DNA of 31,834 nt from an uncultured Bacteroidales bacterium (GTDB taxonomy: Bacteria; Bacteroidota; Bacteroidia; Bacteroidales; Bacteroidaceae): the NCBI GenBank assembly GCA_902768605.1, contig CACXLY010000019.1, positions 1 to 31,834 of the forward strand, read 5' to 3'. Position 1 is the stretch's first letter. Each line of letters begins with the position of its first letter. Both the position numbers and the translations under genes were made by a program. The notes under the pieces were generated by a model. It saw only the letters and a program-made list of their open reading frames with translations. It was not told where the DNA came from and did not search any database. Below are positions 1,261-31,834 of this stretch, one piece after another.

Positions 1261-1878
1261 TTAATGGTTATTCATCATTTGAGCTACTTCTTGATAAAGG
1301 CGTTCACCTCGAGAGCGGATGTCCTGAGCATCTGCTATTGCCATCAGGTACAAGTCGGGTTGTTGGGGCAGGTATTCATTCTCTTGCTCTGGCTCTACCT
1401 GCGCAGGTTCTGCTTCTTGGGGAACAGGTTCTTCGAGGATAGGCTTGTGGACCTTCCTGCGTTTCTTTGCTGGCTGAGGCTTCTCTGCTTGTGCCACGAC
1501 GGGCTGCTCAGTTGTCGTTGAAACTGTCGCTTGAGGCGTTTCCTCTATATTGTCTTTAGGCTGCATCACCTTTTCTGTAACGACAGGAGGCTGCTCAGGC
1601 TGCTGCTTTCCTATGTTGAGCAAGATGAGCAAGAGCACGCTGGCTGCAATAGCTACCCAGACCCCTCTGGACCTCCAGACCCTCTCTAACTCCCCCTTAA
1701 AGGAGGAGGACTCCCTCCCTTTAAGGGAGGGCTGGGGTGGGTCTTGGAGGCTTCCCATCACCCTTTGCTCCATGTCGTCGGGCATCTTCATGCCTGCGGC
1801 CCGGTCGTTCTGCCGTTGCAGGGCTTGGCGGAAAAGGTTCTTCGCTTCGCTCAGGCGCAGGCGGTTGTCGTTATTCAT
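1261..1878 (-). CDS. Membrane protein in the anti-sigma position, carrying an in-frame palindromic element
   Basis: The protein has 205 residues, with a cytoplasmic N-terminal part (1-70), one hydrophobic membrane segment (about 72-88, VWVAIAASVLLLILLNIG) and a Pro/Glu/Gln-rich extracytoplasmic part (90-205). Its start overlaps the sigma factor stop by four bases (ATGA), which suggests translational coupling. Size, topology and position fit the membrane partners encoded next to Bacteroidetes ECF sigma factors, so an anti-sigma role is likely but no zinc-finger anti-sigma motif is visible. Residues about 46-68 (DPPQPSLKGRESSSFKGELE and on) are encoded by a palindromic repeat at 1677-1744, inserted in frame in the linker between the N-terminal part and the membrane segment. 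Confidence 0.7.
   Translation of the reverse strand: MNNDNRLRLSEAKNLFRQALQRQNDRAAGMKMPDDMEQRVMGSLQDPPQPSLKGRESSSFKGELERVWRSRGVWVAIAASVLLLILLNIGKQQPEQPPVVTEKVMQPKDNIEETPQATVSTTTEQPVVAQAEKPQPAKKRRKVHKPILEEPVPQEAEPAQVEPEQENEYLPQQPDLYLMAIADAQDIRSRGERLYQEVAQMMNNH
1677..1744. repeat. Palindromic element E1, in frame inside the anti-sigma-like gene
   Basis: This 68-bp element starts AGACCC and ends GGGTCT. It contains two back-to-back palindromes built on CCCCCTTAAAGG and CCCTCCCTTTAAGGGAGGG. It is nearly identical to the intergenic copy at 30852-30919. The immediate flanks (CCTCC left, GGAGG right) also pair with a one-base bulge. It stays open in the host reading frame and encodes PPQPSLKGRESSSFKGELE. 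Confidence 0.9.
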
Positions 1879-2423
1879 GATTCAATGTGTGTTAAGATGA
1901 TTCTGAGGCGTTGGCGTATGCGGTGAAGCTGGCTGCTGAGGCGCGACACTTCGCGAGCTGTGGCTTCGCCCGCCTGGTTGGTGATGTAGGCAATCTCTTT
2001 TAGCGAGCGTCCGTCGAAGTAGAAGAGTTGCAGGAGCATCTGGTCCTGGGGTGAGAGCTGCTGTATGGCTTCGTCCAGTTGCTGTGCTGTCGTGTCTTCA
2101 GGTAACTCGTCGGGAACATCATCCCTTATGTTGAGCGGCAGCATGACTTGCCGTTTTCGCTTCCGCAGATGGTAGAGCGCTTCGTGATAGGCAATGCGCT
2201 GAAGCCATGTCGAGACAGATGCCCGCTGCGGGTCGTAGTCCTTCAGGTGCTGGAAGGCCGCAACGAAAGTGTTCTGCACCACGTCCTCCGTGTCCTCCTG
2301 CACCCCCACAATGCGTCCGACGAACACCATGAGCGATGGGCCGTAACGCTTTACCAGTTGTGCGAACTCACTTGTCTCGCCGCCTCGTATGCGCTCTATG
2401 ATGCTGTTTTCGTCGTTTGCCAT
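1875..2423 (-). CDS. ECF-family RNA polymerase sigma factor
   Basis: At 182 residues this is the normal length for an extracytoplasmic-function sigma factor. Region 2 lies at about residues 14-90, with the core-binding and -10 melting segment (EDVVQNTFVAAFQHLKDYDP and the following STWLQRIAYHEALYHLRKRKR). Region 4 lies at about 120-178, with LSPQDQMLLQLFYFDGRSLKEIA and a basic recognition helix ending RIRQRLR. There is no region 3, as expected for this class. It heads an operon with the overlapping membrane protein and the secreted protein, a layout that usually means control of the sigma factor by its membrane partner. The target genes cannot be told from this window. Confidence 0.93.
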   Translation of the reverse strand: MANDENSIIERIRGGETSEFAQLVKRYGPSLMVFVGRIVGVQEDTEDVVQNTFVAAFQHLKDYDPQRASVSTWLQRIAYHEALYHLRKRKRQVMLPLNIRDDVPDELPEDTTAQQLDEAIQQLSPQDQMLLQLFYFDGRSLKEIAYITNQAGEATAREVSRLSSQLHRIRQRLRIILTHIES

Positions 2424-2430
2424 TCAACCT

Positions 2431-2461
2431 TATATAGACACAAAAAGGTGAAATGTCACGC
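2431..2461 (-). promoter_or_regulatory. Candidate autoregulated ECF promoter
   Basis: Read on the minus strand, just upstream of the sigma gene start (2423), there is GTGACATTTC, then CACCTTTTTGT, then GTCTATATAAGG. The GTGACA-type upstream box and GTCTATA-type downstream box, about 13 bases apart, are unlike the TAnnTTTG housekeeping box used elsewhere in the window and would suit self-recognition by the ECF factor. No TAnnTTTG box is seen here. This is inferred from position and sequence only. Confidence 0.4.
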
Positions 2462-2466
2462 CGAAA

Positions 2467-2502
2467 GAAAAATTAAAAAGTTGAAAAATTAAAAAGTTGA
2501 AA
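2467..2502. repeat. Simple A/T-rich tandem repeat
   Basis: Two tandem units of about 17 bp (AAAAATTAAAAAGTTG) lie between the dextranase stop and the sigma factor promoter. Similar degenerate short-period repeats occur at 5870-5897, 27510-27540, 27625-27715 and 31008-31058. Confidence 0.7.
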
Positions 2503-2510
2503 TGGAAAGA

Positions 2511-4934
2511 CTATCGGAGCACCTTTTTGCCTTTGCTGACGATGATGCCCTTTGACCGCCCGCCATTGACCACCCGCCATTTCCTGCCACTAAGGTCGTA
2601 GACATCATTCTTCATTCTTAATTCTTCACTCTTCATTTCCTTGATGGCGTCTTCGTTGTCCTTGAACAGCGTTAGCGTGCCGGCTGGGATGTCGGCATGT
2701 ACTTCATAGACAGTTTCGTCGAGTTGGAGGCTCCAAGAGCGCGTGGAGGATGTGGTGGCGGCGAGCGACGAGGGGATATATGGGACGAGCGATTCGCCGT
2801 CGGTCGTCGGGGCGTAGCAGGTGTTGTCCTTCGTCGTCGTCTTTTCCGGCTCGACGACAATCATCGTCCAGAACTGCAGAGAGGGCAGGGTGAGTGTGAT
2901 GGTGCCAGTTGCCGAGACGTATCTGTAGTCCGTCAGCTCCTGCATGGCGCCGCCGCAATAATCTGGCGAAGCGACCCAGATGCGGCGTACCCTGCCCATG
3001 CCCGTCATGCCGGTCAACTTGATGGAAAGGTTCTCGAAGCGCTGCGGCCAGGGTCGCTTTGCCTCGTTGTCGTGCCAGCAGAGCATGTAGTCATCGCTGA
3101 CAGACCCACCCGAACCCTCCCTTAAAGGGAGGGCTTTCGTCGCGGCAAGGTTCTCGCCCAGGGGAGAGTCAGAGGGGGTCTCCTCGTGCGTGAAGTTGAG
3201 CAGGTGGACGACTTGGCGGCCACCTACTTCTCGGGCGAGCAGCGTCACCTGATTGGCTTGCGGTTCCCAAGTGTTGATAGTGACGTCGGAGCACGTGGCC
3301 TTGACGCCCGTCCGCTCTGTCCACGGGTCGCGCAACAGGTTCTCGTAGGCGGTGAGGAAGTCATAGTAGCGCGTCATCCAGTCCTCGAGTTGGCTGTGCC
3401 ATTTCATGCCCGAGTAGGGGAAGTACTCACGGCAGAGCATGTGGTCGCCGCCGAGTTCGAGGTGCGCACCGCCGAGGGCGAACATCACGGCGTCGGCCAT
3501 GACGATGCCCGGCGTGTTGAAGTTCTTGCCGTCGCTCGTGTAGTTCATGTATGCGGCGAGCACGGTGCGGCGGTTCGGGCTGAGGTTGCGGTTCTCGTCG
3601 ATGACGCTCTTGATGTTTGCGAAGCGTCCCTCGCCGCTCGTCAAGCTGTTGCCGGCTTGGTTCCCCCACACCTCGTTGTAGAGGAAATCCACTTTGCCCG
3701 TCCCCGCTATCTGCGATGCGCCCCATCCGGAGACAGCATTCATGATGAGTCGCTTCTCGGGGTGTCGGTTCTTCATGTGGTTGATGAAGGTGGCGAATCC
3801 GTCGCGCAGGTTGACGCTGTTGCCGCTGTAGTCATAGACGTTGCCGCGCGAGCCGAGCTGGTCTATCTGGTAGCCGTCGAAGTCGAGAAAGGAATAGACC
3901 TCGTCGTTGCGCTCAGCCAGATGGGCGAGCCACTCGTCGTTGGCGGGATTGACAAGGTAAATGTCGCTCTTCCACGAGTCGGGGAGGTCGTGTCGGTCTG
4001 TTGTCTGATGTCTGTTGTCTTTATAAATGAACCACTCCTGCTTTACGCCGCGTTCCTCCCAGCCGTCGAGTACGCCGAAGCAGAGGTTGTAGAAGATGCT
4101 CTTCATGCCGCGGTCGTGCTGCGCCCGGATGTAGTTTTTGATGGCCGAGGTGTAGATGGTGCGGTTTGCAATGTCTTTGTATGTTGCCCAAAGGCCTCCG
4201 TCGCGCGTGCCGCCGAGCGGCCAGTCGTGGCAGTAGTGCCAATCCTGGAACTGCACGCCGTTGATGTGGCAGCGGTTGAGCCACTTCATCTCGCTTCGGG
4301 TCTTGCTTAGTGTCTTGTCGCTCCCGAAGGTGGCGACGAATCCGTAGCGCGGAAAGCTTGTCCAGTCGCTGCTGACGTCGATGCCGATGGTGGCGCAGAT
4401 GTTGTCGCAGTCGTCGCCTCTGCGATAGACCTCGACCATGTAGCCCCGGAAGTCGTCGGGCGGCGCCAGCCATGTCCAGCTGCGAGAGGCGAGCAGGGTG
4501 TCTGCGATGACGTCGCCGAGGTAGCGGTAGCGCACGCGTGTGCCCTCCGCAGGTGCCGGCGACATGGTCAGCATCACGGTGTCGCCTGGGGCGTAGCAGC
4601 ACTTGTCGGTCTCTATCTGATAGCGCAACTTGGGCAGCTTCGTGCTTGCTCCCGACGCCAGTACAGGGGCGATGGGGCGCACGTCGATTGCCTTCTTGTA
4701 GGGCTTCGAGTGCAGCGCCAGCGTGCCGGAGGAGAGGGTGAGCAGTCCGCTGTAAGTGCCCGCATCGGGCGAGTCCTCGTGCAGGGCGTAGTCATTCTGG
4801 TCGTTGAAGGTTGTGCCGACGGCCGTCCCCACCGGGTACAGGCAGGGCGGGTAGATGCGTGGTTCCGGCTGGCCTGCCGCCTTTGCTGATGTTGTAAGCA
4901 ACAGGAAAAGGAAGGTATAGAGCAGTTGTTTCAT
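2511..4934 (-). CDS. Secreted GH66 dextranase-like endo-glucanase
   Basis: This 807-residue protein has a signal peptide (about 1-19). Residues about 100-190 look like an Ig-like N-terminal domain. The central part (about 193-540) fits the GH66 barrel, with DGYQIDQLG placing the probable nucleophile at Asp358 and YNEVW placing the probable acid/base at Glu421. GH66 enzymes cut internal alpha-1,6 bonds in dextran, or make cyclic isomaltooligosaccharides; the latter usually carry a large insert not obvious here. The C-terminal part is beta-rich and ends VYDLSGRK...KGIIVSKGKKV, resembling a type IX-like sorting or anchoring tail. Residues about 586-612 come from palindromic element E2. Residues about 766-777 (EMKSEELRMKND) come from a simple repeat joined just before the tail. 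Confidence 0.85.
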   Translation of the reverse strand: MKQLLYTFLFLLLTTSAKAAGQPEPRIYPPCLYPVGTAVGTTFNDQNDYALHEDSPDAGTYSGLLTLSSGTLALHSKPYKKAIDVRPIAPVLASGASTKLPKLRYQIETDKCCYAPGDTVMLTMSPAPAEGTRVRYRYLGDVIADTLLASRSWTWLAPPDDFRGYMVEVYRRGDDCDNICATIGIDVSSDWTSFPRYGFVATFGSDKTLSKTRSEMKWLNRCHINGVQFQDWHYCHDWPLGGTRDGGLWATYKDIANRTIYTSAIKNYIRAQHDRGMKSIFYNLCFGVLDGWEERGVKQEWFIYKDNRHQTTDRHDLPDSWKSDIYLVNPANDEWLAHLAERNDEVYSFLDFDGYQIDQLGSRGNVYDYSGNSVNLRDGFATFINHMKNRHPEKRLIMNAVSGWGASQIAGTGKVDFLYNEVWGNQAGNSLTSGEGRFANIKSVIDENRNLSPNRRTVLAAYMNYTSDGKNFNTPGIVMADAVMFALGGAHLELGGDHMLCREYFPYSGMKWHSQLEDWMTRYYDFLTAYENLLRDPWTERTGVKATCSDVTINTWEPQANQVTLLAREVGGRQVVHLLNFTHEETPSDSPLGENLAATKALPLREGSGGSVSDDYMLCWHDNEAKRPWPQRFENLSIKLTGMTGMGRVRRIWVASPDYCGGAMQELTDYRYVSATGTITLTLPSLQFWTMIVVEPEKTTTKDNTCYAPTTDGESLVPYIPSSLAATTSSTRSWSLQLDETVYEVHADIPAGTLTLFKDNEDAIKEMKSEELRMKNDVYDLSGRKWRVVNGGRSKGIIVSKGKKVLR
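3102..3181. repeat. Palindromic element E2, in frame inside the dextranase gene
   Basis: This 80-bp copy begins AGACCC and ends GGGTCT. It keeps one palindrome (CCCTCCCTTAAAGGGAGGG), while the other half has diverged. It lies in the opposite orientation to E1 relative to its host gene yet is still open, reading DSPLGENLAATKALPLREG in the C-terminal beta-rich region of the enzyme. Confidence 0.85.
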
Positions 4935-4967
4935 GGTTTATTATTATATATAATGTATATTCACCTG

Positions 4968-4975
4968 CAAAGATA
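4968..4975 (-). promoter_or_regulatory. Bacteroidetes -7 box of the dextranase gene
   Basis: TATCTTTG on the minus strand, 34 bases before the ATG at 4934, matches the TAnnTTTG box. No clear TTTG is seen 19 bases upstream, so the -33 element is weak. Confidence 0.6.
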
Positions 4976-5026
4976 GGCTTTTTTCAGCGAAGAGAGAAGC
5001 GTGGAAGCAAACTTTCTGTCTTGTTT

Positions 5027-5058
5027 CTTGTTTCGTAAGCAAAAACGTGCTATCTTTG
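5027..5058 (+). promoter_or_regulatory. Promoter of the PH-domain gene
   Basis: TATCTTTG at 5051-5058 is preceded, after 20 bases, by CTTG at 5027-5030. This fits the Bacteroidetes -33/-7 layout and lies 42 bases before the ATG at 5101. Confidence 0.65.
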
Positions 5059-5100
5059 CACAAAAAAGTAAATGGTTAATGATTAAATAGTAAAAGAAAG

Positions 5101-5670: not shown

Positions 5671-5700
5671 TATTTAAGTTACAGATGTTATTTTTTTATT

Positions 5701-5852
5701 GAAGTTAAAGAAGTTAAAGAAGTTAGCTCGCTATGCTCGCTTGGGGAAGTTAAAGGACAATAGCTTTTGCAGCCAAATCCGGGGCTGAATGCACGCCGCA
5801 TCCCAATGTATCATCCTTTAACTTCTTTAACTTCATTAACTTCTTTAACTCC
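5701..5852. repeat. GAAGTTAAAG-bordered intergenic element, copy A
   Basis: The ends are degenerate (GAAGTTAAA)n in inverted orientation. The roughly 100-bp core includes GCTCGCTATGCTCGC and the stretch AGCCAAATCCGGGGCTGAAT. Its reverse complement is nearly identical to copy B (17133-17285) and shares the flanking parts with copy C (30012-30140). It fills the gap between the PH-domain gene and the acyltransferase gene. Confidence 0.9.
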
Positions 5853-5883
5853 AGAAACTTGGATTAATTATAAATTGTGAATT

Positions 5884-6999: not shown

Positions 7000-7009
7000 G
7001 GAAAAATAT

Positions 7010-7089
7010 CCCACAGCAAGCGTTGCCACTTCCTACAGCAAGGAAAGCCCGACGCCACAGCAAGCGTCGGCCGTTCCCACAGCAAGGAA
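7010..7089. repeat. Constant-loop hairpin cluster (YACAGCAA)
   Basis: Three hairpins share the loop YACAGCAA but differ in their stems: TTCC/GGAA at 7030-7045, CCGACGC/GCGTCGG at 7049-7070 and TTCC/GGAA at 7074-7089. A fourth, half-degraded unit starts at 7010. The cluster begins 11 bases after the acyltransferase stop. A related cluster with the loop on the other strand lies just after the MscS-type gene (17059-17119). Confidence 0.85.
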
Positions 7090-7115
7090 AAACAATTATT
7101 GCTGTCCGGTAAATA

Positions 7116-7345
7116 GCACCGGAGGTGCGAAAGACCACAGACGGGGGTGTGAACCCCCGGGACAGGATAGCCTGACAATAATAAGCCCCGAACCAAAGGT
7201 CGACGATAGTCAAGGGGCGACAGAATATGTAATTTGTTTAATAACAACTTGCTTATGGCTCTGTCGCCCCTTCGGGGCTTTCTCTTTCGTCGCAACATTA
7301 CCGGGGGTTGTCACCCCCGTCTGTGGTCTTTCGTCTCTTCGAGAC
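7116..7345. repeat. 230-bp REP-like compound palindrome
   Basis: The outer arms 7129-7160 and 7301-7332 pair at 30 of 32 positions. They are capped outside by mini-hairpins GCACC-GGA-GGTGC (7116-7128) and GTCTC-TTC-GAGAC (7333-7345). Inside, 7173-7182 pairs with 7271-7280 and 7212-7222 with 7261-7271, plus GCCCC-TTC-GGGGC. It resembles the REP/BIME-type elements mobilised by RAYT (TnpA_REP) transposases, but no such gene is in the window. It separates the convergent acyltransferase and fasciclin genes. Confidence 0.85.
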
Positions 7346-10998: not shown

Positions 10999-11050
10999 AA
11001 AGCAGCGAGCCTGGCATCTCCCGGGGTCGCTGCTTTCTTTGTCCGACGGA
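10999..11050 (+). terminator. Intrinsic terminator after galM
   Basis: AAAGCAGCGA (10999-11008) pairs perfectly with TCGCTGCTTT (11037-11046), followed by CTTTGT. It lies 27 bases after the galM stop. Confidence 0.75.
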
Positions 11051-11069
11051 CGGCCGGCCAAGTGGTAAT

Positions 11070-11255
11070 GGATTTGGCATCGTGATGTGGGAAAGCTGAC
11101 AACGTGACGTGGGAGATTTAGCAACGTGATGTGAGAAAGCTGACAACGTGATGTGGGAGATTAAGCAACGTGATGTGAGAGATTTGACAACGTGATGTGG
11201 AAGATTTGGCGACGTGATGTGGGAAAGCTGGCAACGTGAGGTGGGAGATTTGGCC
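11070..11255. repeat. Eight-copy tandem array with exact 22-bp period
   Basis: The core CGTGATGTGRGA (with small changes) starts at 11081, 11103, 11125, 11147, 11169, 11191, 11213 and 11235, every time 22 bases apart. The linkers vary between two types, AAGCTGRCAA and AGATTTRGCAA. The array lies between the galM terminator and the GH31 promoter. The period equals about two helical turns, so all cores face the same side of the DNA. Confidence 0.95.
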
Positions 11256-11317
11256 TCTATGGGGAGGTTTACGTTCTTTTTTTGCAGGAAGATATAGGCG
11301 GATAGCAAAAAATGTCG

Positions 11318-14410: not shown

Positions 14411-17047
14411 ATGAAAAGACTCTTCTTGGCAGCTGTGCTGCTCCTCTTCATAACACCCGCGGGTTCCGTCCTCAAGGAGAAGGACCTGGCGCGTACGCTC
14501 GGCGTGCTCAAGGCAGAGCTTCAGACCAACTACGAAATGCAGCAGGCCTTCATGCAGAGTTACGAGCAGCAGGGCATGCAGCAACATCAGCAGCTCGTCT
14601 GGTACATGCACCAATGCGAGCAGATTGGGCTGATGCTCTACTCGCAATCGACCGACAACACGTTCGACATGGCGTATGCCTGCCAGCAGGCATCCAATCT
14701 GAGGCGCGAGCTCGACAATCGCAACAGCAAGATGCGGCAGTATGACAAGATTATCGCCCGCATCAAGCAGGACATCGAGCGCACTGACCACCTCATCCGC
14801 TCGCTGAAGCGCATGCCGCCCGTCATCGATGCCGACAGCATCCTGACTGCCAGCGACAGCGTGCTGCTGCAGGCCATCGACTCGCTGGAAGGCAAGAAGG
14901 ATTCGCTCCTTACGGCTCGCCACAAGATGGACGAAGAGGAGGTGGAGCTCATCGAAGACGCGAACGAGGACGAGATTCCCGAAGAGGAAGACGGCATCGA
15001 GCCGCTGTACCTGACGAGGTCACAGCAGCGGGACCGCAACGCCTGCCTTATGTTTGCCGACACGATACGCAACAACATGCAGCACTTCCTGGAGAGTCTC
15101 GAGGCCGAAAACGCCTACTACCAGAGCGTCCGCGAAAAGGTGCTCGAACTCGACCAGTTCGCGCAGAGCCGCTACAAGCTGCTGCAGGACAACATCTTCC
15201 GTAACGGCGGCGCCAACTACTTCAAGATTCTGGCCACGCTGCCCATGCAGCTCAAGATGGCGCAATCGACCATCGACCTGCGCTACAGGCCGTTCAAGGA
15301 CCACGAACGCCTCTACTCCGAATGGCGCGGCGCAACGGTGCTCTTCATCAGCATCTTCCTCGTCCTCTACCTTGGCCTCTCGCTCGGCATCTGCTACATT
15401 GTGCTGCGCTGGCTCCTGCCGAAGAAATGGCGCGGGCCTGACTTCAAGGAGAAGCGGCGAATGCTCAACTTCGTGGCCGGCATAGCTCTCTTCGCCATTA
15501 TCGTGATGATAGTCCGGGCATCCGTTCAGCGCAACTTCATCCAGATGGGCACTGGCCTCATCATTAACATAGCATGGCTGCTCGAAGCCATCTTCTTGAG
15601 TCTGTACGTGCGTCTGAAGAGCGCGCAGATGCGGCATGCGGCCATCATCTACACCCCGCTGATGGTGCTGGCCTTCATCGTCATACTGTTCCGCATCGTG
15701 CTCATCCCGAACACGCTGGTCAACCTTATCTTCCCGCCCGTCCTGCTCGTCTTTGCCATCTGGCAATACTTTGTGGCAAAGCGTCATATACAATACCTGC
15801 CGCTCCTCGACAAGGTCTATACGCACATCACCACCGCAGCGATGTTCTTTGCGTGCGCTGCCGCCTGGACGGGCTACACGTTGCTTGCCGTGCAGGTCAT
15901 GATATGGTGGACGTTCCAGCTGGCAGCCATCATGACCATCACCTTCATCTACGACCTCACGAACAAGTACGAGGCGCGCTATCTGCTGAAGCACCTCGCG
16001 TCCGACATCAGCAGCGACGGCGAGCGCATTTCTCTGCTGAAACGCGTGAAAAAGGGCGAATTCATCGAGAAAACGTGGCTCTACGACCTCTTCTGCCGCA
16101 CGATAGTGCCCATCCTGGCAGTGCTCTCCGTGCTGTTCAGCATCTTCTGGGCAGCCCAGGTATTCGAGATGACGAGCCTCTGCCGCAAAGTCTTCACGCG
16201 CGACATTGTCAACCAGACGGGCCTCATCCGCATCTCGCTCTTCTGGGTCTGCATGGCGGCGGCCCTCTTCTTCATCTTCCGATACATCAACTATGCCCTG
16301 CGCAGCTTCTACCTGCACTATCGCAAGCAGTTCAGCGATAACAACGAGGCCATCAACAAGACGCTGGCCCGCAACGTCATCGGCATATTGAGCTGGGGAC
16401 TCTACATCATCCTGGTGCTCATCATCTTCAAAGTGCCGAGGGACGGCATCAGCATCGTCAGCGCCGGCCTGGCCACGGGTCTCGGCTTCGCCATGCAAAG
16501 CATCCTGGAGAACTTCTTTTACGGCATCAGCCTCATGTCGGGGCGCATCCATGTGGGCGACTACATCGAGTGCGACGGCATAGCAGGCCGCGTGGAGAGC
16601 ATCACCTACCAAAGCACCCAGATCACCACGACCGACGGCAGCGTCATCGCCTTCCTCAACAGCGCGCTTTTCAGCAAGAACTTCAAGAACATGACGCGCA
16701 ACCACCGCTACGAGCTCATCAAAGTGCCTGTGGGTGTCGCCTACGGCACGGACGTCGAGCGAGTGCGGGGGCTTATCGTCGAGGCGCTCAAGCCCATCTG
16801 TCATGAGGAAAACGACGCCGGACAGCCACTCACGGACACCAACATACCGCCCACCGTGGCCTTCAGCGACTTCGGCGAGAGCAGCGTGGACCTCAAGGTC
16901 TGCATCTGGATGCTTGTCGAGGAGAAGATTGCCATCACGGCACGCGTCAAGGAAGTCATCTACAACACGCTGAACAAGAATGGCATAGAGATTCCCTTCC
17001 CGCAGGTGGACCTCCACATCAAGGAGGGACAGGCAAATCCCTCGTGA
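14411..17047 (+). CDS. Large MscS-family mechanosensitive channel protein
   Basis: From the ATG at 14411 the protein has 878 residues. I prefer this start because it gives an N-terminal signal-like segment (MKRLFLAAVLLLFITPAGSV), while a longer frame would add 29 residues encoded by a tandem repeat. Residues about 20-300 are hydrophilic and helical, with coiled-coil character and an acidic patch (DEEEVELIEDANEDEIPEEE), as in the periplasmic part of large MscK/YbiO-like members. About ten membrane segments follow from residue 308. The conserved MscS part lies at about 675-850: pore helix GISIVSAGLATGLGFAMQSI, then ENFFYGISLM, GRIHVGDYIECDGIAGRVES and the beta-domain end. It would release solutes on hypo-osmotic stress. 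Confidence 0.9.
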   Translation: MKRLFLAAVLLLFITPAGSVLKEKDLARTLGVLKAELQTNYEMQQAFMQSYEQQGMQQHQQLVWYMHQCEQIGLMLYSQSTDNTFDMAYACQQASNLRRELDNRNSKMRQYDKIIARIKQDIERTDHLIRSLKRMPPVIDADSILTASDSVLLQAIDSLEGKKDSLLTARHKMDEEEVELIEDANEDEIPEEEDGIEPLYLTRSQQRDRNACLMFADTIRNNMQHFLESLEAENAYYQSVREKVLELDQFAQSRYKLLQDNIFRNGGANYFKILATLPMQLKMAQSTIDLRYRPFKDHERLYSEWRGATVLFISIFLVLYLGLSLGICYIVLRWLLPKKWRGPDFKEKRRMLNFVAGIALFAIIVMIVRASVQRNFIQMGTGLIINIAWLLEAIFLSLYVRLKSAQMRHAAIIYTPLMVLAFIVILFRIVLIPNTLVNLIFPPVLLVFAIWQYFVAKRHIQYLPLLDKVYTHITTAAMFFACAAAWTGYTLLAVQVMIWWTFQLAAIMTITFIYDLTNKYEARYLLKHLASDISSDGERISLLKRVKKGEFIEKTWLYDLFCRTIVPILAVLSVLFSIFWAAQVFEMTSLCRKVFTRDIVNQTGLIRISLFWVCMAAALFFIFRYINYALRSFYLHYRKQFSDNNEAINKTLARNVIGILSWGLYIILVLIIFKVPRDGISIVSAGLATGLGFAMQSILENFFYGISLMSGRIHVGDYIECDGIAGRVESITYQSTQITTTDGSVIAFLNSALFSKNFKNMTRNHRYELIKVPVGVAYGTDVERVRGLIVEALKPICHEENDAGQPLTDTNIPPTVAFSDFGESSVDLKVCIWMLVEEKIAITARVKEVIYNTLNKNGIEIPFPQVDLHIKEGQANPS

Positions 17048-17058
17048 AGCGTCGGCCG

Positions 17059-17119
17059 TTCCTTGCTGTAGGAAGAGCCGTTCCTTGCTGTGGGAAGAGC
17101 CAACGCTTGCTGTAGCGTT
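17059..17119. repeat. Constant-loop hairpin cluster, opposite loop orientation
   Basis: Three hairpins carry the loop TTGCTGTR (reverse complement of YACAGCAA): TTCC/GGAA at 17059-17074, TTCC/GGAA at 17081-17096 and AACGC/GCGTT at 17102-17119. They begin 11 bases after the channel gene stop. The 14 bases GCGTCGGCCGTTCC just before the first loop also occur at 7064-7077, but there the following loop is in the other orientation. Confidence 0.85.
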
Positions 17120-17132
17120 TGGGAACCCCTCG

Positions 17133-17285
17133 GGAGTTAATGAAGTTAAAGAAGTGAAAGAAGTTAAAGGACGATACCTTGGGATGCAGCGTGCATTCAG
17201 CCCCGGATTTGGCTGCAAAAGCTATTGTCCTTTGACTTCCCCAAGCGAGCATAGCGAGCTAACTTCTTTAACTTCTTTAACTTCC
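17133..17285. repeat. GAAGTTAAAG-bordered intergenic element, copy B
   Basis: The full-length element is inverted relative to copy A and nearly identical to its reverse complement, including the core CATTCAGCCCCGGATTTGGC and GCGAGCATAGCGAGC. It ends about 50 bases before the small secreted protein gene at 17335. Confidence 0.9.
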
Positions 17286-17334
17286 ATAAAAAACAGAACA
17301 TCCGAAACTTAAATCATCTATTATATAACAGAAC

Positions 17335-25995: not shown

Positions 25996-26934
25996 TCAAT
26001 TCTTCTCGATGACAAAGGTGACGTTATAGCCGCGATGGGGACTCTCGGCGAGGCTGAGCGTCATGCCCTGCTTCATCAGTATCTGGCGTGAGAGGGAGAG
26101 GCCGATGCCTGTGCCCGTCGGCTTTGTCGTGAAGAAGGGGATGAAGATTTCCTGCTGGACGTCGAGCGGGATGACGTGGCCGTCGTTGGAGAAGAAGAGA
26201 GCCCAGCTGGCCCCCTCCCCGCTCCCCCTTTGGGGGAGTGCCACAGTCCCATTGCCTCGCTGCTTCAAAGCACTCCCCCAAAGGGGGAGCGGGGAGGGGG
26301 CCAGCCCAAGTCCTATCGCCTTCGCCTCAGCCTCGATGGCGTTCTTGACGAGGTTGATGAAGACTTGCCGCAGGAGGTTCTCGTCGGCCTGAATCGTCAT
26401 GTCGGCAGGGATGTCGATGTCCCAACGCAGGTCGGGATAGAGGGCGGCGATGCTTTGCGCAAACGTCAGCATGTTCACTTCAGCCATCACCGGCTCCTGC
26501 AGCTGTGTCAGCTTGCGATAACTCTCGACGAAGGCCAGCAAACCTGTGCTGGTGTCGTTGATGGCACGAATGCCTTCCTCGTAGGGCGAGTCTTTGATGT
26601 CGGGACAGCTCAGGTAGGCCTGGCTGATGCTTTGTATGGGTGTCGTGGCGTTCATGATTTCGTGCGTCAACACCCTTGTCAATTTCTGCCACGACTCCAC
26701 CTCGCTGTGCGCCACCAGCTTCTGTATCTCCTGCCCCATGTCGTTGAGTGCCTCCTGCAGAGCTTTCTCGCCGAAGAAGAGGCCGCGGGTTGGCAACCGG
26801 AACGAGAAGTCGCGATGGCGGATGGCATCGCGCATGATCTGTGCCCGCTCTCTCAGCAGACACTGATGGCGATACCAACGGACAGAAGCCACGACAACGG
26901 CAAGGATGATAGTTATAATGATGATGGGAATCAT
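25996..26934 (-). CDS. Sensor histidine kinase with a palindromic element inside its ATP-binding domain
   Basis: This 312-residue protein has one N-terminal membrane segment (about 1-17) and no large sensor domain. The phosphoacceptor region has VLTHEIMNATTPI, with His91. The catalytic domain shows the N box LRQVFINLVKNAIEAEA (Asn194/Asn198), a weak G1 box (FFSNDGHVIP, about 248-255), the F box FIPFFTTKPTG and the G2 box GTGIGLSLS (274-282). Residues 211-243 (starting APSPLPLWGSALKQRGNG) are encoded by a perfect inverted repeat at 26207-26304, placed between the N box and the G1 box, where related kinases have no such segment. All key residues remain and the frame is open, so the kinase may still work. 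It starts 6 bases after the response regulator stop and forms an operon with it. Confidence 0.88.
   Translation of the reverse strand: MIPIIIITIILAVVVASVRWYRHQCLLRERAQIMRDAIRHRDFSFRLPTRGLFFGEKALQEALNDMGQEIQKLVAHSEVESWQKLTRVLTHEIMNATTPIQSISQAYLSCPDIKDSPYEEGIRAINDTSTGLLAFVESYRKLTQLQEPVMAEVNMLTFAQSIAALYPDLRWDIDIPADMTIQADENLLRQVFINLVKNAIEAEAKAIGLGLAPSPLPLWGSALKQRGNGTVALPQRGSGEGASWALFFSNDGHVIPLDVQQEIFIPFFTTKPTGTGIGLSLSRQILMKQGMTLSLAESPHRGYNVTFVIEKN
26207..26304. repeat. Palindromic element E3: perfect 34-bp inverted repeat inside the kinase gene
   Basis: Bases 26207-26240 are perfectly complementary to 26271-26304, with a 30-base centre. Each arm also contains a small palindrome (CTCCCCCTTTGGGGGAG). 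The sequence differs from E1/E2/E5/E6 but shares the same style of short C/G-rich palindromes around a TTT/AAA centre. Confidence 0.95.
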
Positions 26935-26940
26935 AGTCTA

Positions 26941-27492
26941 TTATTCCCCCTCTCCTCGGAGAGGGGTTAGGGGTGAGGCTTTTACCTTATTATATAATGT
27001 CTGGCGGCTGATGCCGAGGAGGTCGGCGGCGCGCTTCATGTTGCCGTCGCACTTGCTGAGCACCTTGCGTACGTGCTCGCTCTCCAGTTGGTCCAGCGGA
27101 ATCACCTCGCCCGCCTTGTCGATAGCATCCTTCAGGACGCGGATGAGCTCGTCATTGTCCCACGGCTTCGTCACAAAGTCCGCGGCGCCGTTCTTCAGGG
27201 CACGCACGGCAAGCTTGACGTCGGCATAGGCTGTGATGAGGACAATCGGGATGTCGGGGAAGCGTCGATGTATGGCCGAGAGCCACATCATGCCTTCCTG
27301 CCCGGAGTTCACGCCGAGGCTGAAGTTCATGTCGAGCAAGACGACCGACGGATGCTCCTGAGCGATGGTGGCCAGCGCCTTGTCGGGAGAGTTCAAGGTG
27401 AGAACTCGCTCGAAGGTGCCGCCGAGGCATATCTTCACTGCCGTCAGGATGGAAGGGTTGTCGTCAATGACGAGGAGCGTTCCGTATTTCAT
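26941..27492 (-). CDS. NtrC-type response regulator lacking the AAA+ domain
   Basis: From the ATG at 27492 the protein has 183 residues. The receiver domain spans about 1-122, with acidic pair Asp10/Asp11, phosphoacceptor Asp54, Thr87 and Lys109. Directly after it, PLDQLESEHVRKVLSKCDGN and MKRAADLLGISRQTLYNKVK (about 132-171) form the Fis-type helix-turn-helix that ends NtrC-family regulators. The central AAA+ domain of about 240 residues, with GAFTGA and Walker motifs, is absent, so it should not activate sigma-54 itself. The last residues (KASPLTPLRGEGE) come from a palindromic element (E4). An upstream ATG at 27507 is less likely because it lies upstream of a TATCTTTG box. It is encoded just before its kinase, and divergently from the ABC genes it probably controls. 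Confidence 0.9.
   Translation of the reverse strand: MKYGTLLVIDDNPSILTAVKICLGGTFERVLTLNSPDKALATIAQEHPSVVLLDMNFSLGVNSGQEGMMWLSAIHRRFPDIPIVLITAYADVKLAVRALKNGAADFVTKPWDNDELIRVLKDAIDKAGEVIPLDQLESEHVRKVLSKCDGNMKRAADLLGISRQTLYNKVKASPLTPLRGEGE
26946..26979. repeat. Palindromic element E4 forming the end of the response regulator gene
   Basis: CCCCTCTCC-TC-GGAGAGGGG (26947-26966), then TTAGGGGTGAGGC. It supplies the codons for SPLTPLRGEGE and almost the stop codon of the regulator. Confidence 0.75.
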
Positions 27493-27496
27493 AGTG

Positions 27497-27504
27497 CAAA
27501 GATA
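27497..27504 (-). promoter_or_regulatory. -7 box directly before the response regulator ATG
   Basis: TATCTTTG on the minus strand ends only 4 bases before the ATG at 27492, so the transcript would start at or next to the start codon. The -33 position is a simple repeat without a TTTG match. Confidence 0.45.
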
Positions 27505-27573
27505 CAAAGAAATGAAGAATGAAGAGTGAAGAATGAAGAATTTGCTACCGCTTTCGCGTGTATTTACCCGAAA

Positions 27574-27614: not shown

Positions 27615-27663
27615 AAGCGCAATTATGAGCTATGAATTATGAACTATGAACTAAGAATTGCCT

Positions 27664-27671: not shown

Positions 27672-27701
27672 CAGCAGAAAACCAACAATGAACTAAGAAT
27701 T

Positions 27702-30008
27702 ATGAACTATGAACTGATTTCTCGCACCGTCAGGGCCAGCTGGCGCAATCTGATGAAGTACAAGACGCAGAACATCATCTCGGTGCTCTGCCTGGCAGTG
27801 GGAATGGTCCTCTTTAGCGCGACCTTTATCTTCTCGTTGCGGGCGTGGCAGCTCTGGCAAATGCATGGCGGCCCGCGTCGCGCACAGGTTTCGCTCTATA
27901 CGAGCGAAGGCAAACACCACTCTGTGAACCACGACGACGTGAGGCGCATCTACGAAGCCAACCTGTCGAGCATCGACTTCATCGACCTCGACTGGTATGC
28001 CGTGGGCACCGTCGCACCCTTTACCGACCTGAAGGGAAAGCAGTATGAGGTGGAGACGTCCTGGAAATGGACAAATCCCGAACGCTTCAACTACTTAGGG
28101 CTGAGGTCTGCCATCACAGGGGAACGCATTCTGATACTGAAACCCGGCGACCTCATTATGACGAAAAACATGCTGGAGCGCACGTTTGGCAAGGGCGTGA
28201 ATCCCATCGGCTTCAAAGTCGCTGGCTGTCCCGAGTACAACGGACGCAAGTACGAAACCATTGTCGATGTCGTCGATACGGGCGATTGGTTGCTTAGCGA
28301 CGACCATCTCTACGTCGTCACCGACCAAATGAAGGAGTTCACGACATCCGTTGAACCCTTTAGCAACTTTTACTTAGACGTCATCCTTGCGAAAGGCAAG
28401 ACGCGCAAAGACCTGCAGGCAGAACTTCAAAAGGCTCTGCCCGAGTATGAGGTAAAGGCAATGACAAACTACTCAATCGTACTAATAAGATTATTCGTGT
28501 TAATCTTTCTCATGGGAAGCAGCATCCTGCTTATCGGCCTGTCCGGTTTCCTGAAGACAGAGATTCAGCTCTTCCGCCTGAGGCAAAGGGAGATGGGACT
28601 GCGGCAATGCATGGGAGCACAAAGGGGCCAGCTCTTCGGCCTGCTGATGTGGGAGGTGGCGATCGTCTTCTTCTTCGTCACGCTGCTGGTCATATTGCTT
28701 TCCTACTGCTTGGCCGACTATGCCCTCCCCATCATGCAAAAGCAAATGCCAGGGTTTACGGTAGATATGTCGCGCACTTACGTCATCGAACTCTGGCTGT
28801 GCCTCGCCACGTTCATACTCACCGCAGGCATCGCCGCCCTGTCTGTCCGCAAGGTTATCCAAGCGCCGCTGAGCGAAGTGGTAGGCAAGAGCCGCAGGGT
28901 CTCTACGCGAGGCCGCAGTCTGCTTGTCGTCCTGATGATGGTGGTTTGCCAGGGATTGCTCTTCGTTGATTCGGGCGTCTTCTTCTTCTCTAACGCCATA
29001 AGCGCGATTCGCACGCCTGCCAACGCCGATGACTTCCGCCGCAGCATCGTCACAGAAGGCAGCAAATGGAAGCCCGAGTTTCTCGACACCTTGCAGCACC
29101 TGAAGCATATCGAAGGCACGACGCATGTGGTGTCAGCACGCTTCAATGCAGTCGGAGGAGGGGATGACGATATCTTCCTGACCGACGAGAACCTCTTCCG
29201 TCTGCTGGACATAAAGCTCGTGCCGAGTCACATAGCAGAAGAGATGGACTCGAGGGACATGATTCATGTGCGCGACTACCGTAACGTAAAGCCAGGCGAG
29301 GAAGCAAAGGTGATAGGTTACATCGATGTCGGTCAGCTTAAAGCTCTCGCCAGCATCCACTACAGGCCGCTTTGCATCTATCTCTGCGATACATCGTACT
29401 TCCTCGATAAGCGCGACATAGCAGAGCGTATATGGGAAGACTTCGAGCGTGCCGTAAGGGGGTATGCCGTCAGGCATAGCATTATCCTCAAGGCTAAGCA
29501 GGGTGAGCGAAAGGAAGCCATGAAGGAGCTGAGCGAACTTTATCGCGAGCAGGGACGCTACACGCTGTCTCATGCGCCCATCGACAACCTGTTCAACGTC
29601 TGCTTCAGTCTGCTGCGCTCGACTGAGCTGTCAGTGCAAATCCTGCTCGTCCTGACGGTAGTTGCCGTCCTCTGTATCGTGCTGACGCTCTACTCGTCTG
29701 TCTCTCTCGACACGCGCCGCCGCCAGAAAGAAGTTGCCATACGCAAGGCGCACGGAGCCGACACGCGGCAGATACTGTGGCTCTTCGCCAAACCATACAT
29801 CTGGCAACTCATCATTAGCAGCCTCATCTCGTTGCTCCTCGCCAACGTCTTTGCTTACATCGTAGAAGAAATTAGCTTCAAGAGAGATGTCGTCATGCCC
29901 TATCTCATAGCCATCTCCGTCGTCGCCCTCGTCACACTCCTGACCGTTGGCTATAAGATATATAAGGTCTCACAATTGAACCCAGCAACGATAATAAAGA
30001 AAGAATAA
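27702..30008 (+). CDS. FtsX/MacB-type ABC transporter permease with two FtsX domains
   Basis: The chosen start at 27702 gives 768 residues; an earlier ATG lies upstream of the promoter box and inside a simple repeat. Eight membrane segments are visible: one near the N-terminus (NIISVLCLAVGMVLFSATFI), three around residues 265-400, one near 410-430 and three in the last 150 residues. Two large extracytoplasmic loops lie between them. This is the layout of the fused permeases of the MacB/LolC/FtsX superfamily found in Bacteroidetes. The loop after the first segment resembles MacB periplasmic core domains. They form exporters or mechanotransmission complexes with a separate ATPase, here encoded 149 bases downstream. 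The substrate is unknown; antimicrobial or lipid export are both possible. Confidence 0.9.
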   Translation: MNYELISRTVRASWRNLMKYKTQNIISVLCLAVGMVLFSATFIFSLRAWQLWQMHGGPRRAQVSLYTSEGKHHSVNHDDVRRIYEANLSSIDFIDLDWYAVGTVAPFTDLKGKQYEVETSWKWTNPERFNYLGLRSAITGERILILKPGDLIMTKNMLERTFGKGVNPIGFKVAGCPEYNGRKYETIVDVVDTGDWLLSDDHLYVVTDQMKEFTTSVEPFSNFYLDVILAKGKTRKDLQAELQKALPEYEVKAMTNYSIVLIRLFVLIFLMGSSILLIGLSGFLKTEIQLFRLRQREMGLRQCMGAQRGQLFGLLMWEVAIVFFFVTLLVILLSYCLADYALPIMQKQMPGFTVDMSRTYVIELWLCLATFILTAGIAALSVRKVIQAPLSEVVGKSRRVSTRGRSLLVVLMMVVCQGLLFVDSGVFFFSNAISAIRTPANADDFRRSIVTEGSKWKPEFLDTLQHLKHIEGTTHVVSARFNAVGGGDDDIFLTDENLFRLLDIKLVPSHIAEEMDSRDMIHVRDYRNVKPGEEAKVIGYIDVGQLKALASIHYRPLCIYLCDTSYFLDKRDIAERIWEDFERAVRGYAVRHSIILKAKQGERKEAMKELSELYREQGRYTLSHAPIDNLFNVCFSLLRSTELSVQILLVLTVVAVLCIVLTLYSSVSLDTRRRQKEVAIRKAHGADTRQILWLFAKPYIWQLIISSLISLLLANVFAYIVEEISFKRDVVMPYLIAISVVALVTLLTVGYKIYKVSQLNPATIIKKE

Positions 30009-30011
30009 TAC

Positions 30012-30140
30012 GGAAGTTAAGGAAGTTAGAGGAAGTTAAGGAAGTTAAAGGACGATACCTGATGGCAACTTCCAAAGCTATTGTCGTTTAACTCCCAGCG
30101 AGCATAGCGAGCGATAACTTCTTTAACTTCTTTAACTCCC
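30012..30140. repeat. GAAGTTAAAG-bordered intergenic element, copy C (internally shortened)
   Basis: The ends match copies A and B, including GCGAGCATAGCGAGCG and GCTATTGTC. The middle with the CAGCCCCGGATTTGGC segment is missing and replaced by a short GATGGCAACTTCCAA stretch. It lies between the ABC permease and ATPase genes. Confidence 0.85.
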
Positions 30141-30156
30141 ACAAAAATCAAGGAAT

Positions 30157-30831
30157 ATGATACACTTACACAGCATCAAGAAAGTCTTCCGCACGGAAGA
30201 GATCGACACTTGGGCGCTCCGCGAAGTGAGCCTCGAAGTGAAGGAAGGAGAGTTTGTCAGCATCATGGGGCCTTCGGGCTGCGGCAAGACTACATTATTA
30301 AATATAATGGGACTGCTTGACGTGCCTACCGAAGGAACCTACCTGCTCGATGGCAACGACGTGAGCCTGCTGCCTGAGCGCGAGCGCACAAGCATTCGCC
30401 GAGGCACTATCGGCTTCGTCTTCCAAAGCTTCAACCTCATCGACGACCTCGATGTCTATGAGAACGTCGAACTGCCTCTGCTCTATATGGGCGTGCCGGC
30501 AAAGGAAAGGAAGAGACGTGTTGAGGAAATCCTCGACCGCATGGCGATGTCCCACCGCAGGCGACACTTCCCGTGCCAGCTCTCGGGCGGTCAGCAGCAG
30601 CGCGTCGCCGTGGCGCGAGCCATAGTGGCAAAGCCTAAGATTATCCTTGCCGACGAGCCGACAGGCAACCTCGACTCGAAGAACAGCAAAGAGGTAATGG
30701 ACCTTCTTTGCCAGCTCCACGATGAGGGCACCACCATCGTCATGGTGACGCACTCACAGCACAACGCCAGCTTTGCCGACCGCATCGTCAACCTCTTTGA
30801 CGGACAAGTGGTGGAACAGACGGAGCTGTAA
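30157..30831 (+). CDS. ABC transporter ATP-binding protein (MacB/LolD type)
   Basis: This 224-residue protein has the usual size for a stand-alone ATPase of this class. Walker A GPSGCGKTT is at 38-46, the Q-loop Gln at 90, the signature LSGGQQQR at 142-149, Walker B ILADEPTGNLDS at 163-174 and the switch His at 199 (VTHS). The DEPTGNLDS sequence is typical of the MacB/LolD/FtsE group, which energises FtsX-like permeases by binding and hydrolysing ATP on the cytoplasmic side. It most likely partners the permease just upstream, although a 129-bp repeat element separates the two genes. Confidence 0.95.
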   Translation: MIHLHSIKKVFRTEEIDTWALREVSLEVKEGEFVSIMGPSGCGKTTLLNIMGLLDVPTEGTYLLDGNDVSLLPERERTSIRRGTIGFVFQSFNLIDDLDVYENVELPLLYMGVPAKERKRRVEEILDRMAMSHRRRHFPCQLSGGQQQRVAVARAIVAKPKIILADEPTGNLDSKNSKEVMDLLCQLHDEGTTIVMVTHSQHNASFADRIVNLFDGQVVEQTEL

Positions 30832-30842
30832 GCACAGCCTGT

Positions 30843-30928
30843 CCCACAGCCAGACCCCCTCTAACTCCCCCTTAAAGGGGGAGGACTCCCTCCCTTTAAG
30901 GGAGGGCTGGGGAGGGTCTGGCTGTGGG
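30843..30928. repeat. Palindromic element E5, intergenic and the best preserved
   Basis: The outer 15 bases (CCCACAGCCAGACCC, 30843-30857) pair perfectly with 30914-30928. Inside are the two palindromes CCCCCTTAAAGGGGG and CCCTCCCTTTAAGGGAGGG. The core 30852-30919 is 68 bp, the same length as E1. It starts 11 bases after the ATPase stop, so it could also serve as a transcript-end hairpin. Confidence 0.92.
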
Positions 30929-31007
30929 GCTGGTAGGTTGTATTCTCTTAATAAAACATAATTCTTTGCCTCAACGCGTAACATTTCGCACGCTCGTGCG
31001 TTATATA

Positions 31008-31058
31008 TATAAAAGGTGAAAAGGTGAAAAAGGTAAAAAGGTAAAAAAGTAAAAAGAT
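31008..31058. repeat. Simple AAAAGGTGAAAAAGG repeat before the last gene
   Basis: Degenerate tandem units of AAAAGGTGA / AAAAGGTAA run up to 5 bases before the ATG at 31063. The GGTGA and GGTAA parts may interfere with or provide ribosome binding. Confidence 0.7.
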
Positions 31059-31062
31059 AACA

Positions 31063-31834
31063 ATGAAGCAAACAATCATCGCGTGCCTTCTGTTCATAGC
31101 GGCAGGGGCAGCACAGGGAAAGCAAATCGTGTGGGAGCAGCCCACTACGGAGTTCAGTACAAGCTACGGCGACGGCTTCTTCAATTTGGCTCTCGACATC
31201 ACGAAGGTCCAGTTCGCCAGCGGCTCTTATCTGAGGGCTGACGGCAAGCAATATGCCATCACGTCTGCCGACGGCATACAGCTCGACACGCACCAGCAGA
31301 CGGGCCCCGACGGCACAAGCGACGTCGTGCTCCACTTCGAGCCGCTGCCCCTATCGACCAAGTCGTTCGACTTCACCGAAGGAGATTTCGACGGCGCATG
31401 GTCCATCACGGGCATCAAGCCTGTGGAAGAACGCTGGCGCCAACTGCTGCCTTCCTATTGGTGCGACGAGAAGGGCGACTGGAAGATTGCCTTCCTCGAG
31501 GACCAAGCCATATATGATTGCAAGTTCTGGCGTTACAAGAAGCTCGACATCAACCAGAAGACGGGCGAGGCAGAAATGCTGCTAGAGGCAGACCCACCCC
31601 TGCCCTCCCTTAAAGGGAGGGAGTCTTTGTCCTCCCCCTTTAAGGGGGAGTTAGAGGGGGTCCGCGAGCTGCGTGTCATTGTTGGCAAGGACAAGAAGGG
31701 CAAGCGCACCATACAGATTGGCGACCAGAAGGCTTCGTACAGCATGATAACCAGCCGCTTCATGCCCGACTACCCGCAAAAGGACACGCGCACCGACTTC
31801 GTAGATACCGATTACAAAGCCGACACGGTGACGG
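31063..31834 (+). CDS. Secreted protein, truncated by the window end, possibly TlpA-like
   Basis: 257 codons are visible and the stop is outside the window. Residues 1-18 are a signal peptide (MKQTIIACLLFIAAGAAQ). The visible part has FNLALDITKVQFASGSYLRA, KSFDFTEGDFDGAWSITGI and KPVEERWRQLLPSYWCDEKG. From memory this resembles the N-terminal half of Bacteroidales secreted proteins with a C-terminal thioredoxin/TlpA domain, but that domain would lie beyond the window, so the call is tentative. A palindromic element (E6, 31590-31662) adds about 24 residues (PPLPSLKGRESLSSPFKGEL) between EAEMLLEA and RELRVIVGKDKKGKR, in frame. Confidence 0.7.
   Translation, partial: MKQTIIACLLFIAAGAAQGKQIVWEQPTTEFSTSYGDGFFNLALDITKVQFASGSYLRADGKQYAITSADGIQLDTHQQTGPDGTSDVVLHFEPLPLSTKSFDFTEGDFDGAWSITGIKPVEERWRQLLPSYWCDEKGDWKIAFLEDQAIYDCKFWRYKKLDINQKTGEAEMLLEADPPLPSLKGRESLSSPFKGELEGVRELRVIVGKDKKGKRTIQIGDQKASYSMITSRFMPDYPQKDTRTDFVDTDYKADTVT
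31590..31662. repeat. Palindromic element E6, in frame inside the last gene
   Basis: This 73-bp copy begins AGACCC and ends GGGTC, with palindromes CCCTCCCTTAAAGGGAGGG and CCCCCTTTAAGGGGG. It has the same orientation and the same reading frame as E1 relative to the host gene, giving PSLKGRES...FKGELEGV. Confidence 0.9.

Follow-up and report, generated by a model that had tools for sequence, protein, structure and literature searches.

In the literature consulted here, palindromic repeats that lie in frame within protein genes have been reported from Rickettsia and for a minority of the copies of repetitive extragenic palindromic (REP) elements. The available part of one account states that nearly half of the first described set of Rickettsia palindromic elements (RPEs), which are about 150 bp long, is located in genes (PMC10969869). 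The sections of a second study drawn on here divide REPs into the GTAG and CGTC superfamilies, assign RPE-4 and RPE-6 to the CGTC REPs, and report both intragenic REP copies and one case, recB of two Xanthomonas, in which different REPs occupy nearly the same position (PMC3733652). Subclasses 2.4 and 2.6 of the REP-associated tyrosine transposases (RAYTs) occur in Bacteroidetes and, in the excerpts of a third report, in-frame REPs are found in subclass 2.4 genes, or atypical hairpins beside them (PMC6006769). A search of the open-licence literature brought up no paper that treats palindromes within Bacteroidales genes, and for exchange at one site nothing beyond the recB case (PMC3733652). Here, we describe C/G-rich palindromic elements present in six copies in a 31,834-base stretch of DNA from an uncultured Bacteroidales bacterium (contig CACXLY010000019.1; the whole stretch is called the window below) and in related genomes.

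Copy numbers reach the hundreds in some genomes; the majority of the sampled copies are located in predicted genes, in frame, and some are inside one Pfam domain. The sites that they occupy are exchange hotspots, at which related species carry different types of element or none, and one cassette is common to two species on an identical tract together with its immediate flanks. The same-site exchange is the new part; intragenic REP- and RPE-like palindromes were already known. We consider it probable that the elements are non-autonomous mobile palindromes resembling REPs and REP doublets forming hairpins (REPINs), with several families built on one plan, a roughly gene-blind entry assisted in trans by an HUH enzyme, purging of frame-breaking copies and swaps by recombination.

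Palindromic elements of the window

The window has a GC content of 55.5%. Its nearest relatives are the metagenome-assembled genomes (MAGs) RUG14526 (L001; best segment, a permease, with 94% protein identity) and RUI392 (L002; 90%), both Bacteroidales; we take the RUG names to indicate a rumen origin. The six palindromic stretches, E1–E6, listed in an initial annotation of the window were all located, and our cluster caller returned 6 element clusters against 2 in the reversed-sequence control. As that annotation held, five of the six are coding and keep the frame open: E1, E2, E3 and E6 lie within genes and E4 is the C-terminal tail of one; E5 is intergenic. The TTTAAA-like centres ascribed to all of them are present in E1, E2, E5 and E6, but not in E3 (CTTTGG) or E4 (CTCGGA). 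An Rfam scan of the window gave 0 matches at gathering scores.

The families share a plan consisting of an unpaired C-rich head of about 13 nt and a hairpin (stem of at least 6 bp), frequently arranged as inverted dimers. Among 145 halves from the census loci (see below) and the window, the head starts with GACC in 57, GCCTC in 41 and GCCCC in 22, the remaining 25 having another start or none. The type names were coined in this analysis: GACC corresponds to type A, GCCCC to type C (E3) and GCCTC to types B, D and E (E4 and others). Type A elements (E1, E2, E5, E6) have an AGACCC... head, the hairpin CTCCCCCTTAAAGGGGGAG or CCCTCCCTTAAAGGGAGGG, and then a second, inverted half. The analysed DNA contains 54 unique inverted dimers, two-unit structures as in REPINs, with lengths of 66–130 bp; single halves occur too. 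The commonest type A dimer extends over 66 bp from GACC to GGTC (3 x 22), intergenic copies included, and three of the five type C dimers are 92 bp long. The most frequent foot tetranucleotides are CTAA (23), CCAA (17), CCGA (10) and CCGT (10); GTAG or CGTC, the tags of the REP superfamilies, occur in 3 of the 145 heads. The elements and their host genes are as follows (strand not applicable to the elements).

E1, 1677..1744: type A inverted dimer with a mismatch in the second hairpin, within a 205-aa sigma-operon protein
E1 host, 1261..1878, minus strand: small protein whose gene follows a sigma-70 factor gene (1875-2423)
E2, 3102..3181: type A element with a single intact hairpin, within a GH66 protein
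E2 host, 2511..4934, minus strand: glycoside hydrolase family 66 protein (PF13199)
E3, 26207..26304: type C inverted dimer (CTCCCCCTTTGGGGGAG), in a histidine kinase, residues ~211-243
E3 host, 25996..26934, minus strand: histidine kinase (HATPase_c)
E4, 26946..26979: type D single half (CCCTAACCCCTCTCCGAGGAGAGGGG) with a CTCGGA centre, C-terminal tail of a response regulator
E4 host, 26941..27507, minus strand: response regulator; alternative start at 27492 by the hexamer-model gene finder
E5, 30843..30928: type A inverted dimer, intergenic, 3' of an ABC ATPase gene (30157-30831)
E6, 31590..31662: type A inverted dimer with a 10-nt spacer, within a protein labelled secreted by the initial annotation
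E6 host, 31063..31834, plus strand: protein without a Pfam family, extending past the window end

E1 is inserted directly before the hydrophobic segment of its host protein, for which the protein search found 507 homologues, though the hexamer-model gene finder missed the gene, and is retained in the near-identical proteins P0121-P0124. The arms of E3 are 36 nt long and 100% complementary. E4 encodes the final residues of the response regulator (KASPLTPLRGEGE, then the stop), and is present in the relative L001 and not in L002. E5 is nested in a longer inverted repeat, 30838-30933 (CCCACAGCC...GGCTGTGGG), which may serve the ABC ATPase gene as a terminator.

Copies in genes and between genes

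The census sample was chosen blind to content and comprised up to 20 kb from the start of each of contigs C1-C40 of G001, to which L001 belongs (40 stretches, 785,159 bases), and of contigs C1-C20 of G077 (20 stretches, 284,464 bases). Genes were predicted with our own hexamer-model gene finder, and clusters were defined as C-rich hairpins with a C-rich head or a G-rich tail. Copies were in excess of chance in both genomes: G001 gave 61 element clusters and its reversed-sequence control 4, and G077 gave 34 and its control 1. The pattern CTCCCN{2,9}GGGAG had 331 matches in G001, whereas its reversed form had 21. The G001 clusters comprise 28 in mid-gene positions, 8 at most 60 bp from a gene 3' end, 3 across a gene edge and 22 between genes; the corresponding figures for G077 are 18 mid-gene, 2 N-terminal, 2 C-terminal and 12 intergenic. 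Predicted genes hold 36 of the 61 copies in G001 and 22 of the 34 in G077, a distribution that, unlike that of REPs, is not mostly intergenic.

Coding sequence makes up 86.0% of the sampled DNA in G001 and 81.3% in G077. After removal of the edge cases, the genic copies (36/58 and 22/34) are below this share (p 5e-6 and 0.02), and the per-base genic density is 0.27 (G001) and 0.42 (G077) of the intergenic density. Entry into genes is thus selected against, yet not prevented.

Pfam was run on the open frames at 41 of the 46 mid-gene positions, the omissions, all in G001, being four weak hairpins and a kinase (L182 3852). One of the omitted weak hairpins (L093 18546) lies in a thymidylate synthase gene, which is probably native, with a hairpin that arose by chance; some of the 28 mid-gene copies of G001 are therefore false, and the control predicts about 4 of 61. 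A Pfam domain spans the element, or domains are found on both sides of it, at 27 of the 41 scanned positions (15/23 in G001, 12/18 in G077), that is, in-frame insertion in unrelated protein genes as with RPEs. Comparison of the intervals by script placed 14 of these 27 copies within one matched domain.

L081: aminotransferase
L087: OMP decarboxylase
L172: DEAD helicase
L174: PmbA/TldD
L182: acyl-CoA dehydrogenase
L186: exonuclease VII
L187: PRA isomerase
L189: GH20
L192: phosphoglucomutase
L194: helicase
L202: CobD
L203: Mg chelatase
L205: 2-hydroxyacid dehydrogenase (the match also encloses the NAD domain)
L208: rhamnosidase

At the other 14 scanned positions, a domain was matched on just one side; they include a GH66 protein of G077 with conserved sequence on both sides. 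As a separate observation, three of the 27 frames seem to join neighbouring genes across the element, L074:1454-3763 (sigma-70 and TonB plug), L176:11457-13646 (two positions; acyltransferase and glycosyltransferase) and L176:13833-15689 (acyltransferase and cyclophilin).

No split gene was found among 11 scanned same-strand intergenic pairs, a sample picked for short distances on both sides and blind to old decayed genes: 10 pairs join different families (e.g. dihydrofolate reductase and thymidylate synthase) and 1 is ambiguous, with 18 further same-strand pairs lying outside the scan. Both this result and the genic majority of copies agree with the initial annotation, which had presented the elements as residents of genes. 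A number of intergenic hairpins of G001 and G077 start 11-17 bp past the end of the upstream gene, with the head beginning approximately at the stop codon.

Exchange of elements at the same site

The protein sets for the kinase (E3), E1 and E2 sites consisted of the 120 nearest proteins of each search, two of the protein searches having scored only candidates sharing most words (7998 and 7995). At the kinase site, 13 of 26 loci were parsed at the DNA level, L001 and L051 being one locus. The site is occupied by type C in the window, type B in L001 and L054, a single C-like half in L002, type D plus another half in L052 and a further type in L053; L055 and L056 carry what we read as remnants, and L057, L060, L070 and L073 are empty. 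The loop is represented by 78 distinct segments of 10-41 residues in 115 of 121 parsed proteins, many differing by single residues, and 8 of the 78 (11 rows) are short segments of the empty type. Types in this protein set are peptide motifs, and class A (QPPLGG) is putative at the DNA level. A tree built without the insert requires at least 43 changes of the combined 5'/3' motif type and 6 of the filled/empty state. P0036 is identical to P0024-P0027 in the kept backbone columns and has a different insert; nearly identical backbones with different inserts are also seen in P0102 beside P0116, and in P0029, which is 98% identical to the window kinase outside the insert. The half-peptide motifs recombine as well: the 3' motif KGGW is combined with four 5' classes, and the 5' motif K with both KGGW and HPSLGG.

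Eight of the 20 parsed loci at the E1 site (31 loci examined) are filled, with type A in varied phases and orientations or with type D plus another half; the fills follow the codons of a conserved SL and replace a segment like KPQATKRRWLYPLS. The proteins of this site (109 of 120 parsed) show 32 type changes and 19 filled/empty changes. At the E2 site, 18 of 120 proteins are filled or carry a remnant, with 10 changes, and G077 has an element array there. The alignment of the E6 site, which covers the window and 16 of the 30 loci fetched, contains type A in the window and five loci, type C in L143 and ten empty loci. The A and C alleles share flanks, which differ from those of the empty alleles; this suggests that one type replaced the other rather than that two entries took place into an empty site. 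A possible explanation of the variable segments as native low-complexity loops was rejected: orthologues free of the palindrome lack the same peptide, as the interpretation of the initial annotation requires, and carry unrelated short segments instead.

The kinase genes of G001 (L001) and G015 (L054) are identical along a 124-base tract (positions 616-739 in the frame of L001) and have many differences elsewhere, with a sliding identity of 65-91% over the rest of the gene, ends excepted. The insert, as delimited here, occupies positions 629-713 of the same frame, leaving identical flanks of 13 and 26 bases, and the cassette spacer is found at this locus only in the 1.88 Mb of DNA examined, overlaps counted. 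Such a tract is what short-tract homologous transfer of a cassette between species would leave. The sharing does not explain the first origin of the types at the site. In the structural model of the window kinase (34 sequences), the insert is located between the strands 206-211 and 245-250, and residues 214-242 have a predicted local distance difference test score (pLDDT) <50; in this model, the insert forms a disordered loop linking two ATPase-domain strands.

Distribution in the genus and candidate enzyme

Across 139 genomes of a Bacteroidales genus, the pattern count ranges from 5 to 700 per genome, against 2 to 86 in the reversed-pattern controls; several genomes have no excess (counts versus control 21/21, 9/9 and 11/18). 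Y1 transposase matches are present in 62 of the 139 genomes, and a large RAYT-like protein family is matched in 87, with no more than 14 matches per genome, some of them two pieces of one gene. The G001 member of this family is a 398-aa protein that scores 34.7 bits against NCBIfam REP_Tyr_transpos, below the cut-off of 80, and 23.2 against Pfam Y1_Tnp (cut-off 23). The median palindrome excess is 126 in genomes with the large RAYT-like family and 20.5 in those without it (Mann-Whitney 5.8e-9; 139 genomes), and the excess is correlated with the number of RAYT-like matches (rho 0.58). A RAYT-like HUH protein is a candidate for the mobilising enzyme. Strong IS200-like matches (E <1e-15) were rejected as a predictor of copy number (26 versus 113 genomes, p 0.22).

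The large RAYT-like proteins include L035:1252-2445 and its kin (L236-L265). Several are frequently present in one genome, and many of their open frames are about 350-500 aa long. Some of these frames contain palindromes of their own, TAGCGGCG..CGCCGCTA and TGCCCGCA..TGCGGGCA. The C-rich elements have no relationship to the palindromes that occur within or next to the RAYT-like genes (TAGCGGCG..., CTGGCGGATT...).

Frame keeping and origin of the elements

If the elements are REP/REPIN-like mobile palindromes, as we find probable, their insertion would be roughly gene-blind: copies that break a frame would be purged and copies at tolerant loops would survive. Once a site is occupied, later changes would occur mainly via short-tract homologous recombination between alleles, and also by conversion between dispersed copies with similar heads and hairpins. 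First entry at a new site may depend on a RAYT-like transposase of the single-strand HUH kind, supplied in trans. These data also allow speculation about a genome-wide cassette system, in which half-elements would be interchangeable modules, continually traded one half at a time and across species borders at constant positions in loops inside genes, so that the whole genus samples new protein loops; we regard this extension as tentative and rather doubtful. In such a system, loops would be renewed in places faster than the amino acids of the host protein change.

The initial annotation had left the choice between selection and an element built to be tolerated, and the results favour selection. 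A selfish peptide-coding module whose length and sequence evolved to hold frames open appears unlikely. It would account for the commonest type A dimer being 66 bp long (3 x 22, also between genes), for a length divisible by three in 28 of 38 type A dimers, and for the openness of type C (4.20 open frames of 6 versus 2.83 in shuffled sequences, n=5) and types B, D and E (3.56 versus 2.72, n=9). However, type A dimers are no more open than shuffled ones (2.42 versus 2.56, n=40), three of five type C dimers measure 92 bp, the 18 genic dimers of the census are spread over all three length classes (8, 6 and 4), and most of the 38 type A dimers stem from loci retrieved with one 66-bp query or as orthologues of one site. 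Among the type A dimers of the window and the unselected stretches, lengths that are multiples of three were seen in 6 of 10 genic and 2 of 5 intergenic copies; if the excess were true of intergenic type A copies (2/5 there), selection alone would be insufficient. With 2.4 to 4.2 of 6 frames open, multiplied by one third to allow for length, about 0.13 to 0.23 of random entries are expected to keep the frame. The density ratios given above, 0.27 and 0.42, are similar in magnitude and somewhat higher, as would be expected if intergenic copies are also purged or sites are reused. Selection suffices for most frame keeping, and a helpful 66-bp unit length may contribute.

The 78 segments at one kinase loop, the mosaics of 5' and 3' peptide motifs and the near-identical backbones with different types could also be read as functional diversity cassettes, loop peptides of kinases and other proteins being swapped by recombination and their variants selected. 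We find this quite unlikely, as the same kind of element occurs in unrelated housekeeping enzymes and between genes, and any function of the loops would be putative. Miniature inverted-repeat transposable elements (MITEs) mobilised by an ordinary DDE transposase, with no HUH enzyme, would fit the inverted halves, which act like terminal repeats, and the lack of a linked RAYT; this origin seems improbable for elements whose internal sequence and length are not fixed, whose single halves are common and for which no target duplication was resolved amid replaced host bases. Finally, both named relatives are MAGs, the searched genomes are in many contigs and repeats can mislead assembly. An artefact of assembly or gene calling was nevertheless rejected as highly improbable: the dimers are short (66-130 bp) with the same gene on both flanks, similar alleles recur in separate protein clusters and Pfam domains span the inserts.

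Several results weigh against the REP/REPIN-like origin or the exchange as we describe them. Complementarity of the flanks beyond the element was tried as a rule and rejected, 31 type A dimers giving no signal of flank palindromy (0.65/0.42/0.45 at the first three offsets versus 0.63/0.36/0.31 with shuffled flanks). At the E1 and E6 sites, insertion was accompanied by replaced host bases, and no target duplication was resolved. The type is 'other' in 37 of the 115 kinases, the types resting on peptide motifs, and the E2 site holds only type A variants, remnants or none. For these short proteins, errors in the tree and recombination raise the change counts, which are raw totals, uncalibrated by label shuffling; consequently, we give more weight to the alignment of the E6 site and to the backbones that are nearly identical than to these totals. 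The kinase model is modest, with a mean pLDDT of 63.5, a predicted template modelling score of 0.46 and further low-confidence stretches. Shared ancestry alone could produce the association between RAYT-like proteins and palindromes, the statistics ignoring ancestry and genome size, and there are exceptions to it in both directions: an excess of at least 80 in 7 of 52 genomes without the large RAYT-like family, and of at most 15 in 15 of 87 genomes with it. A transposase beside the element was rejected too. No C-rich element was found near 18 Y1 loci; at 30 RAYT-like loci, 2 clear and 2 doubtful ones were found, not above background, and in a partly overlapping RAYT-like set, they occurred at 2 of 23 loci, where the density of G001 would give more. 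Among the Y1 and RAYT-like loci surveyed, there was no cognate RAYT flanked by the element as in REPINs.

Other repeats of the window

An interspersed repeat of about 164 bp, AAGTTAAAG-rich and unrelated to the palindromes, is present at 5692-5855, 17130-17293 and about 30008-30150; copies 1 and 2 are 95% complementary and copy 3 is partly similar. A tandem array with a 22-bp period (11049-11290) precedes a 988-aa open reading frame at 11348, and related repeats around CCACAGCAAGCGTCGGCCGTTCC are found in inverted orientation at 7009-7118 and 17026-17118.

Comparison with known systems

The observation of the initial annotation is confirmed and its interpretation supported. In the sampled genomes, genic copies outnumber intergenic ones, the host genes include core-metabolism enzymes and the copy number varies widely over the 139 related genomes. 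For one and the same protein, alleles coexist that are filled, empty or swapped, which makes the shaping of proteins by selfish DNA directly testable. The palindrome-derived peptides (SPTLSRGRG, NPSPRRGE, PSLKGRE and similar) should serve as a warning to annotators of Bacteroidales genomes.

The likeness to RPEs proposed by the initial annotation is one of behaviour, drawn from descriptions of RPEs, and implies no membership of an RPE family. Like RPEs in the available part of their description (PMC10969869), the elements form several palindromic families and sit in frame in unrelated protein genes. They differ in belonging to another phylum, in the length of their dimers (66-130 bp versus about 150 bp), in a somewhat larger genic share (36/61 and 22/34) and in the exchange of types at the same site; the CGTC tag of RPE-4 and RPE-6 is absent. 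With REPs and REPINs, as far as the excerpts describe them, they have in common a short hairpin with an unpaired tag, inverted dimers and several families per genome. REPs, however, are mostly intergenic and carry GTAG or CGTC, whereas CTAA and CCAA are commonest here and the majority of copies is genic. The RAYT subclasses 2.4 and 2.6, within the same limits of the source, share with the present system HUH transposases, the phylum and in-frame palindromes within a transposase gene (here L035). The RAYT-like genes studied here differ from them in that their palindromes are unrelated to the C-rich elements.

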